Positions 781 to 33,900 of a stretch of 35,066 nucleotides of DNA are shown one piece after another (the first letter of the stretch is position 1; each line of letters begins with the position of its first letter). The position numbers were made by a program, and so were the translations under genes. The stretch comes from a virus, in the IMG/VR virus record IMGVR_UViG_3300009091_000036, positions 1 to 35,066 of that record; one strand, given 5' to 3'. The notes below the pieces were generated by a model. The model saw only the letters and a program-made list of their open reading frames with translations, did not search any database and was not told the DNA's origin.

Positions 781-810
781 TTGACAAGGCAAGGACTTAG
801 GACATATACT
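781..810 (+). promoter_or_regulatory. Sigma70-type promoter ahead of the gp55-like gene
   Basis: There is a perfect -35 box TTGACA at 781-786, an 18-base spacer and a -10 box TATACT at 805-810 (five of six matches to TATAAT). Transcription would start near 817, just before the Shine-Dalgarno sequence of the leader ORF. It is the best promoter match in the window and lies in one of the few real intergenic gaps. Host RNA polymerase could therefore transcribe the sigma-like gene without phage factors. Confidence 0.7.
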
Positions 811-830: not shown

Positions 831-890
831 ATGACCTTGGCTATTGGGGAAAGAATACGGGCTAAGAAAGGGGTTTTGGGGAGGGGATAA
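831..890 (+). CDS. 19-codon leader ORF upstream of the gp55-like gene
   Basis: An ATG at 831 has AGGAG at 819-823, seven bases upstream. It opens a 19-codon frame (MTLAIGERIRAKKGVLGRG) ending with TAA at 888-890. The last codons contain GAGGGG, the Shine-Dalgarno of the following GTG start at 893, so the two would be translationally coupled. The GERIRAKKG part resembles the opening of helix-turn-helix regulators, so it may be a decayed start of one; a real regulatory leader is equally possible. The good ribosome site and position right after the promoter support translation. Confidence 0.45.
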   Translation: MTLAIGERIRAKKGVLGRG

Positions 891-892
891 GC

Positions 893-1684
893 GTGGCTAC
901 AGGCTGGTTCAGCTCATTGGGGTGGTGGGATCAGTATGCGGCATACGACGCATTCGATATCTATCGAGCTGAACCAACACGATCACACTTAGACATAGCG
1001 ATCCAACTTGCACTTCCTATTATACGTGTTGTGTATTCGACTCAAAAGTTCAAGATAACGTACTCTGGTGACGAAGACGACTTCATTTCCCACGCTGCGT
1101 ACACGATCACAAAAGCCATCCCTAAGATGAGTCAAAAACCACGAGAAAAGCTAGATAATGACAAGAAGTACATGCGCTATTTGTTTACTTGTGTGGTCAA
1201 CGCTTTTTACCGTGAATACGATATCCTCCATGGTAAGCACAACAAGCTTCAACGCCGGGTAACCGAGTACCGACCAAATCTCCAACCATCAAGTAGAGGG
1301 GAAAAGACCCATCAGTCTCTCGAAGCGGAGCTAACACTTCGAAGACTGCCTGGGCAGTTGTTTATCATTGCGGTGGATGCTATCCGGTTTGAGGGTAAAC
1401 CTAAGCGCATTTGTGAATATATCTTGGGACAAATGATTCATGACCGAGAAATCGCGAAGTCGGTCCTTCAGCTCATGGGTTGCAAGGACCGACTTTTTTA
1501 TGAGCAGTACTGTAACTCTGTTCTTTTCCACGCTTTCTTAACGCTTCGGCAGCACAAACCTCAATACGACGAGGAGATGGAGCAAGATATTCAGGAGGAA
1601 TTCCTGAATGAGGTTGAGGACTTCCTGCCTGAAGAGGGCTATGACGCTCTCTTTGCGGCGGAAGAAGAAAGTGAGGTGGCCTGA
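893..1684 (+). CDS. Probable late-transcription sigma-like factor (T4 gp55-type)
   Basis: The protein has 263 aa and starts at GTG 893 with GAGGGG six bases upstream. Residues about 34-125 follow the layout I recall for T4 gp55 and sigma region 2: a helix (IAIQLALPIIRVVYS), then DEDDFISHAAYTITKAIPKM, then a YMRYLFTCVVNAFYREYD helix leading to a basic stretch (HGKHNKLQRRV). In gp55 this core binds RNA polymerase and reads the -10 of late promoters. The second half is helical and ends in an acidic tail rich in Glu and Asp. At 263 aa it is longer than T4 gp55 (about 185). The gene has its own sigma70-like promoter and carries a terminator-like hairpin at 1457-1499 inside the coding sequence. The assignment rests on remembered motif similarity; an unrelated helical protein remains possible. 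Confidence 0.5.
   Translation: MATGWFSSLGWWDQYAAYDAFDIYRAEPTRSHLDIAIQLALPIIRVVYSTQKFKITYSGDEDDFISHAAYTITKAIPKMSQKPREKLDNDKKYMRYLFTCVVNAFYREYDILHGKHNKLQRRVTEYRPNLQPSSRGEKTHQSLEAELTLRRLPGQLFIIAVDAIRFEGKPKRICEYILGQMIHDREIAKSVLQLMGCKDRLFYEQYCNSVLFHAFLTLRQHKPQYDEEMEQDIQEEFLNEVEDFLPEEGYDALFAAEEESEVA
1457..1499 (+). terminator. Intrinsic-terminator-like hairpin inside the gp55-like coding sequence
   Basis: A perfect 12-bp inverted repeat (AAGTCGGTCCTT at 1457-1468, AAGGACCGACTT at 1484-1495) with a 15-base loop runs straight into six T residues (1494-1499). It is oriented to stop + strand transcription about 190 bases before the stop codon. The sequence is read in frame as part of a helix of the protein. 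Closely following ribosomes could suppress it, so it may act as a polarity or attenuation signal. Confidence 0.6.
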
Positions 1685-1685
1685 T

Positions 1686-1907
1686 ATGTCATACGCTACT
1701 CGGCAGTTTTTGCTGGCTGAAGCTGAGAAGTGGATTCAGAAGGCGACCGCCAGAATGGAAAAGAAAGGCACGAAAGGATCGTTCAGTGCGGCTGCTTCAC
1801 GCGCTGGGATGGACACTCGTGCCTATGCTAGAAAAGTTTTGAATGATCCTAATGCAAGTCCCGCGATGAAGAAAAAGGCGAACTTTGCTCGTAATGTGAT
1901 GAAGTGA
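1686..1907 (+). CDS. Small basic hypothetical phage protein
   Basis: The frame is open further upstream, but ATG 1686 is chosen because GAGGTGG lies about seven bases before it and the start sits just after the previous stop. The product has 73 aa, is basic and helical, and ends with YARKVLNDPNASPAMKKKAN and a short helix. This 'N-A-S-P-x-x-K-K-K-A-x-F-A' ending is a pattern I recall from many small unassigned phage proteins. It has no catalytic or metal-binding signature. It is the last gene before the structured non-coding segment at 1912-2043. Confidence 0.65.
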   Translation: MSYATRQFLLAEAEKWIQKATARMEKKGTKGSFSAAASRAGMDTRAYARKVLNDPNASPAMKKKANFARNVMK

Positions 1908-2056: not shown

Positions 2057-2314
2057 ATGGATGACAGTAACCTTCTCCCTATGGTCTTTGGGGAATTGAT
2101 AGAAAGGGCCAACAAAATCGAACAGTTAACTGATGTTGTCATGGCAGAGTATTATGCTGCTATCAACAATGACGAGAGCTTGATCCCAGAAGTGGTATCT
2201 ATCCTCGGGCCGAACACCTTCGAGTTGCTCGTGAAGTACTTTGGCGGACATACAATCCGGATCCCTAAGAGCGAGGATATCCTGGCGACTGTGAGGCGTA
2301 ACAATGGGCAGTGA
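2057..2314 (+). CDS. Small protein resembling the N-terminal domain of Mor-type activators
   Basis: This 85-aa protein starts at ATG 2057, 13 bases after the T-run of the structured RNA, and has only a weak ribosome site. The segment LLVKYFGGHTIRIPKSEDIL (about residues 56-75) matches my memory of the 'FGG-x-x-I-x-I-P' strand of the Mor/C family of phage transcription activators, where it forms the dimerisation part. The helix-turn-helix that follows in Mor is absent, as the protein ends soon after. It may be a dimerising regulator lacking its own DNA-binding domain, or an unrelated virion-region protein. Its stop overlaps the start of the next gene by 11 bases. Confidence 0.5.
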   Translation: MDDSNLLPMVFGELIERANKIEQLTDVVMAEYYAAINNDESLIPEVVSILGPNTFELLVKYFGGHTIRIPKSEDILATVRRNNGQ

Positions 2315-32865: not shown

Positions 32866-33900
32866 ATGGGTGAATTCGATTTCTTAACGCCAATCCCAAA
32901 AACCACGGTGCAGGTGAAGCTGCCGTCACGGGGAGTCCTTTACCCAAAGGGATCTCCTGCGTCGGGCGGTAAGTTGACCTTGACGCCAATGACGATGGTT
33001 GAGGAAGCCGTTTTCGCCAACCCGAGGTCACAGGGTGGGGAAGCGGTGGACACAATCTTGAAGCGGTGTATCCAAGAATCTGTTGATGTCAACACGCTTT
33101 TGTCCAGTGACAAGTTCTTCATGTTCATGATTCTTCGTGCCATCACCTATGGTCCGAAGTACTCGTTTGTGTGGACTTGCACAGCTAGGAAGAACCCTCG
33201 GGAAGCTTGTGGCCGGAAGAACGAAAAGACGGTCAGGATCCCCGATGACTTCGAGGTGAAATACCTGGCTGATGAGGATAAGGAGCCGTTTATCCTCCGG
33301 CTGAAAGACAGCGGCAAAGAAGTTTCTCTGCGGCTTCTTCGTGGTTATGACGAACCGATGATCGACAAGTACACGGCGGAGTTGGAAGCCAAGCGGAAGC
33401 AGGGTATCCAGATCGCTGATACGACTCAGGCGTACCGGTTGTCCCGGCATCTTGTGGCTGTGGACGGTAAGTCGGTCGAGAAGGCCCCCGAGGACAAGGT
33501 GCTCTCCTTTCTGGTGTCTTTGTCGTCCAAGGATATCCAGCAAATCCGTGACACTATCGTGTACTACACCCCAGGAATTAGCACGGGTGTGACGCTCGTG
33601 TGTGCTGACTGCGGCACTGTCCACGAATGGGATTTGCCGTTTACGGCGGACTTTTTTCGTGCAGTCGATACGGAGCCGGGGCGAACAGTGGTCGATGAAG
33701 TTCGACCTGATGTACCACCTCGGGATGAGGTACAGCGAGATAATGAGCCTGGACCTAGCGGAACTCCAGTGGTACTACGAGAAGCTGCGAGAGACGAAGG
33801 AACAGGAGATCGAAATCGAGAAGGTCAAACTCGAAGTGCTGGCTTACGTCGCATCAGCCGGGGCCACCAAGAAACAGGCGCAGAACCTACTAAGCGGTAA
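32866..33900 (+). CDS. Baseplate hub / tail assembly chaperone (T4 gp26/gp51-like)
   Basis: The 344-aa frame starts at ATG 32866 after AGGAGG. Residues 15-265 fit the family: VQVKLPSRGVLYPKG at the start, LLSSDKFFMFMILRAITYG in the middle, Cys at about 105 and 115, and LVCADCGTVHEWDLPF with Cys about 246 and 249 followed by FFR. The four Cys could bind a metal. The final 80 residues after FFR are rich in Pro, Arg, Asp and Glu and use poor codons; they look like a shadow of the overlapping frame. The conserved part ends at residue about 265, next to a T6 run (33652-33657). It probably helps build the tape measure/hub complex. Confidence 0.85.
   Translation: MGEFDFLTPIPKTTVQVKLPSRGVLYPKGSPASGGKLTLTPMTMVEEAVFANPRSQGGEAVDTILKRCIQESVDVNTLLSSDKFFMFMILRAITYGPKYSFVWTCTARKNPREACGRKNEKTVRIPDDFEVKYLADEDKEPFILRLKDSGKEVSLRLLRGYDEPMIDKYTAELEAKRKQGIQIADTTQAYRLSRHLVAVDGKSVEKAPEDKVLSFLVSLSSKDIQQIRDTIVYYTPGISTGVTLVCADCGTVHEWDLPFTADFFRAVDTEPGRTVVDEVRPDVPPRDEVQRDNEPGPSGTPVVLREAARDEGTGDRNREGQTRSAGLRRISRGHQETGAEPTKR
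33652..33658 (+). other. Possible programmed frameshift site (TTTTTTC)
   Basis: At the end of the conserved part of the gp26-like gene the mRNA reads GAC TTT TTT CGT. Phe-tRNA on the second TTT could slip +1 onto TTC, or -2 onto TTT at 33653-33655; both enter the frame of the downstream ORF. A small GCCG/CGGC hairpin lies just upstream. No strong downstream structure was checked. The site would join the chaperone to the overlapping 86-aa ORF. Confidence 0.45.

Follow-up and report, generated by a model that had tools for sequence, protein, structure and literature searches.

The DNA analyzed here is a 35,066-nt stretch of an uncultured virus record (the window), and near its start a phage gene for a sigma-factor-like protein contains, well before its stop codon, a hairpin followed by a run of T's. 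Its layout raises the question of whether this gene carries an intrinsic transcription terminator within its own coding sequence and, if so, what such a signal would be for. Three features define the problem.

893..1684, plus strand: sigma-factor-like gene, 263 aa, GTG start, all-helical product with HTH-like helices near residues 189-220
1457..1495, plus strand: intragenic hairpin, perfect 12-bp arms plus an inner 5 bp, 4-nt loop
1494..1499, plus strand: T6 tract, directly 3' of the G+C-rich stem

The earlier note had described a perfect 12-bp inverted repeat merging into T6 inside the gene, and we find it at 1457-1495. The arms (1457-1468 and 1484-1495, 15 nt apart) are 100% complementary, and an inner extension, CAGCT/GGTTG with one bulged C, continues the stem up to the loop. 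The T run needs a finer description, as its first two T's already belong to the 3' arm. Counted from the 12-bp repeat, the tail has four T's; counted from the G+C-rich part of the stem at 1459-1493, it has all six. This part folds at -21.7 kcal/mol, giving the stable hairpin of an intrinsic (Rho-independent) terminator. The wider interval 1440-1510 has a minimum free energy of -27.2 kcal/mol (z = -3.7; equally low in 0 of 200 shuffles). From the hairpin to the stop codon there are about 185 to 190 nt, in agreement with the roughly 190 bases given before. The coding content of the hairpin is KSVLQLMGCKDRL, and the residues encoded by the repeat region are KSVLQLMGCKDRLF.

Such an element had also been called unlikely by chance in coding DNA. 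When 28 kb of window genes was shuffled 300 times among synonymous codons, no hairpin with an equally strong U tail reached -21.7 kcal/mol, the best being -20.0 kcal/mol. The window has a single copy of the repeat, and the general form of the hairpin is present in one copy per contig in the five contigs that match, with no further copies of the motif found in them. Under a looser length rule, a second intragenic hairpin of similar score (33600-33651, -22.3 kcal/mol, then T6) appears in the gene at 32866-33900; it is longer and less regular than the one at 1457-1495. The window also contains a canonical intergenic terminator-like hairpin at 35-56 (TCGGGGGCCTCTTGGCCCCCGA TTTGTTTATT).

Our comparison set consists of the window and eight IMG/VR relatives, nine sequences in all and every one uncultured; a further 168-kb IMG/VR contig, L002, is identical to the window across the compared stretch. 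The eight relatives share 47 to 62% identity with the sigma-like protein over its full length, and no relatives of it were found in the phage collection (tblastn) or in the scanned GTDB genomes. Six of the nine genes carry the hairpin (the window, L010, L011, L012, L013, and L014), while L008, L009, and L021 are missing stem and T run jointly. L008 and L009 are the sequences closest to the window yet have no hairpin, which indicates either a loss of the element in these two or more than one gain; the tree of the nine sequences is mostly without resolution. The absence of the hairpin from two close relatives also indicates that the gene does not require it.

The earlier note had proposed comparing the folding energy with synonymous shuffles and asking whether relatives keep the stem through pairing-preserving changes, and both comparisons bore out its expectation. 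We ran 3,000 trials per gene, keeping the encoded protein and the codon set of each gene unchanged. The hairpin was rarely matched in the six genes that carry it, with z values of -4.1, -3.8, -4.5, -3.6, -2.6, and -3.2; the number of shuffles folding equally well was 2 for the window, 5 for L010, 1 for L011, 4 for L012, 34 for L013, and 15 for L014. The corresponding counts in the genes lacking a hairpin were 626 (L008), 719 (L009), and 597 (L021). Because fourfold-degenerate sites outside the hairpin are only 17 to 42% identical among the six genes, with silent sites saturated, these amount to nearly independent tests. A scan along the gene placed the mean z of the six at -3.9 at codon 188, with -1.7 in the next separate window, and this peak is the only one of its kind in the gene.

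Pairing is preserved through substitution in six of the nine genes. Two stem pairs are altered on both sides, each from C-G to T-A and each with a conservative amino acid change: in L011, GTC to GTT accompanies GAC to AAC (Asp to Asn), and in L013, CTN to TTA accompanies AAG to AGA (Lys to Arg). When the register was slid as a control, the paired share fell from 85% to 53% or less. The stem tolerates G-U pairs, which favors RNA over a DNA cruciform. The hairpin is thus an RNA element held by selection within the coding sequence and not an accident of codons.

The T tract is a different matter. It is T6 in the window, T7 in four relatives, and T3CT3 in L010, so that each carrier has the U-rich tract of an intrinsic terminator, and in five of the six the T6 or T7 lies 0 to 3 nt from the stem, on the coding strand only. 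No significant selection on the tract by itself was detected, since synonymous shuffles match its length in 9 to 95% of trials (P = 0.09 to 0.95 per gene). With tracts of that length arising in the shuffles, conservation of the tract may follow from a conserved Phe-Phe; the window's own tract codons are Leu-Phe-Tyr and differ from that pair. The terminator reading is based on layout and not on demonstrated selection for the tract.

Two further features lie upstream of the gene.

781..810, plus strand: sigma70-type promoter, TTGACA-18-TATACT, 11 of 12 matches, the best in 20 kb
831..890, plus strand: 20-codon leader ORF (19 aa and stop), MTLAIGERIRAKKGVLGRG, between the promoter and the sigma-like start

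An equivalent sigma70-type promoter is present in all eight relatives, 18 to 20 nt before the sigma-like start codon. In the window, this distance is 82 nt, with the leader ORF in between; no leader ORF was seen in the relatives, whose leaders span just those 18 to 20 nt. The reading frame is open across the hairpin in all carriers and its start is promoter proximal, the layout of a translation-dependent attenuator. With a sigma70-type promoter just upstream in every relative, a close ribosome would mask the hairpin and a lagging one would unmask it.

From the structure, its conservation, and its position behind a promoter-like sequence, we infer, with a probability of roughly 55%, that the hairpin is an intrinsic terminator inside the gene and that translation determines whether it is used. 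Host RNA polymerase carrying sigma70 would initiate at the adjacent promoter, and a ribosome would load nearly immediately. If that ribosome stayed close behind, it would cover the 5' arm, and the polymerase would read through to yield full-length sigma-like mRNA. If translation lagged, the emerging RNA could fold into the hairpin over the U tract, which would end transcription about 185 nt before the stop codon. Such an early stop would leave less sigma-like protein and less of everything downstream.

Ribosome-masked terminators are known as single cases, chiefly from laboratory bacteria. In E. coli, ribosomes suppress intrinsic terminators within genes, and stalling exposes them (PMC5021804). 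The signals in rsxC and narY and the pyrL reporter, exposed by ribosome lag, resemble the phage locus in having a terminator layout within a translated gene that a close ribosome would mask (PMC5021804). Unlike those cases, the putative terminator described here lies in a sigma-like gene, and compensatory substitutions have maintained its stem in a clade of phages; no polyproline stall motif was seen in the sequence just ahead of it.

The earlier note's interpretation is partly supported: a translation-dependent attenuator is the best fit among the explanations that we considered, and pairing is conserved in six of nine genes. The strongest rival, because selection has been demonstrated for the stem only, is a post-transcriptional role, which we consider doubtful: the hairpin would act on the finished mRNA as a site for RNase III or protein binding or as an element that affects stability or slows elongation, and the T run would be a by-product of Phe-Phe. 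Two considerations count against a terminator in this comparison. A terminated message would be a non-stop mRNA, an odd means to make or limit a sigma factor, and the T run comes mostly from the conserved Phe-Phe, is not significant in the shuffles, and is interrupted in L010. Set against an mRNA-level role are the placement of the tract at terminator spacing in five of six carriers, its Leu-Phe-Tyr codons in the window, and the joint absence of stem and tract from three genes.

The same juxtaposition of stem and T run could also suggest programmed transcriptional slippage, as in the Roseiflexus IS630 transposase gene, where a stem-loop directly precedes a homopolymer run within the coding sequence (PMC5009743). 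Slippage on T6 or T7 would give frame-shifted mRNAs and a truncated sigma-like protein, and one inserted U does lead to a stop within a few codons in the four genes that were read. We judge this improbable, given that the shifted frames differ in length and sequence and end at different short lengths, with no conserved product or conserved alternative frame. The run is only T6 to T7 and is broken in L010, the normal downstream frame is conserved, and the T5C5 motif of the Roseiflexus case is lacking. A site acting in DNA (an operator, cruciform, packaging, or recombination signal) would suit the perfect dyad and the large gene with weak terminase matches about 2.6 kb downstream of the sigma-like gene. 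It is likewise improbable in view of the preservation of pairing rather than sequence, the tolerance of G-T pairs in the stem, the one-sided T tract, and the single copy per contig. As for chance combined with shared ancestry of a conserved peptide, the residues K-S-V-L...K-D-R do permit complementarity given suitable codons; all six genes, however, use the pairing codons despite saturation at silent sites, and with only 1 to 34 of 3,000 shuffles folding as well, this explanation is effectively excluded.

Sequence searches of Pfam, PHROG, and PDB returned no match for the sigma-like protein. AlphaFold2 predicts an all-helical structure with modest confidence (pLDDT 70, pTM 0.43), and the hairpin covers the HTH-like helices of this model. 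With this model as the query, Foldseek placed sigma32, WhiG, SigA, and SigS among the best PDB matches and, among phage proteins, found RpoE-like and sigma-like matches, including one in Klebsiella phage KPV15 (rmsd 3.7 over 125 columns, TMt 0.64). The E values of the sigma matches are 0.02 or higher, so the fold match is support, not proof, that the protein is sigma-like.

The earlier note had called it a gp55-like sigma. The model comparison lends support to a sigma-like fold; sequence gives none for membership in the T4 gp55 family, the profile comparison with eight T4-type gp55 sequences giving a probability of 0.2% (hhalign, shallow profiles), and an alignment to gp55 made by eye finds no support there. 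The locus resembles T4 gene 55, which encodes the late sigma factor, in its putatively sigma-like product, in the T4-type portal gene that the phage carries, and in the fold match to the KPV15 factor. It differs in having no detectable sequence relationship, a length of 263 aa versus 185, and a possible extra HTH region. The hairpin is absent from the eight T4-type gp55 genes, which indicates that late sigma genes of phages do not generally carry it. T4 late promoters have the sequence TATAAATA, of which the window contains no exact match and 6 one-mismatch matches versus 12.5 expected. We infer a "late" role from the genes that follow, one of them Mor/C-like ("late transcriptional activator") and others structural.

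The region directly after the sigma-like gene contains a second structured element.

1686..1907, plus strand: small inserted ORF that separates the sigma-like gene from the rod RNA, PHROG 20603, also in L011 and L013
1912..2043, plus strand: rod-shaped structured RNA, closing stem with its 5' end at 1912 and its 3' end at 2037, then T6 at 2038-2043
2057..2314, plus strand: 85-aa gene with a Mor/C-like domain without the HTH part, phrog_836 "late transcriptional activator"
Rod RNA in relatives: L008, 5184-5310; L009, 5801-5926; L010, 6781-6906; L011, 7006-7133; L012, 6794-6921; L013, 3746-3871; L014, 5687-5819

This RNA of about 126 nt lies between the sigma-like and Mor/C-like genes in eight of the nine phages. 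Its alignment has 89% of base-pair cells paired and changes on both sides in 23 of 28 pairs, a covariation score reached by none of 500 shuffles. A covariance model matches 9 of 10 records (two of which, G000 and G001, are the same sequence) at E values of about 1e-23 or lower, once per contig and not in the L021 contig. No Rfam match was found for the window or the five relatives searched, and the rod RNA may be more novel than the hairpin. The Mor/C-like gene has a phrog_836 match in all nine phages (best E value, 1.4e-4), with Pfam Mor reaching only E = 0.1. L021, which has neither hairpin nor rod RNA, has a promoter-like TTGACA-17-TACCCT ending 6 nt before its Mor-like gene (upstream of 2866); no equivalent was seen before this gene in the other phages, except for one 10/12 match in L011.

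The 5' arm of the rod RNA begins 3 to 19 nt past the preceding stop codon. In the window, L011, and L013, this codon ends the small inserted ORF; in the others, it ends the sigma-like gene itself. The U-rich end lies 9 to 19 nt ahead of the next start codon as listed. The near-constant spacing from stop codon to arm suggests that the 5' arm is masked by the terminating ribosome. The rod RNA might then serve as a second gate, ahead of the Mor/C-like and structural genes, its 5' arm being close enough to the stop codon before it for a ribosome there to reach. The two structures could jointly gate the passage of RNA polymerase into the late genes. We tentatively propose a two-stage ribosome-sensing checkpoint, in which hairpin and rod RNA would pass the polymerase from the host-type promoter to the Mor/C-like and structural genes only if the sigma-like mRNA is well translated.

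In the open-access literature, we found no phage sigma gene reported to contain a terminator, which is not proof of absence. The maintenance of a terminator-like hairpin by compensatory evolution inside a phage regulator gene points to the coupling of transcription and translation as a signal used by phages. The rod RNA, which covaries very strongly and matched nothing in Rfam over the stretches searched, could itself control the step from early to late transcription. If the checkpoint exists, the early-to-late switch of these phages would be tied to the translation capacity of the host.
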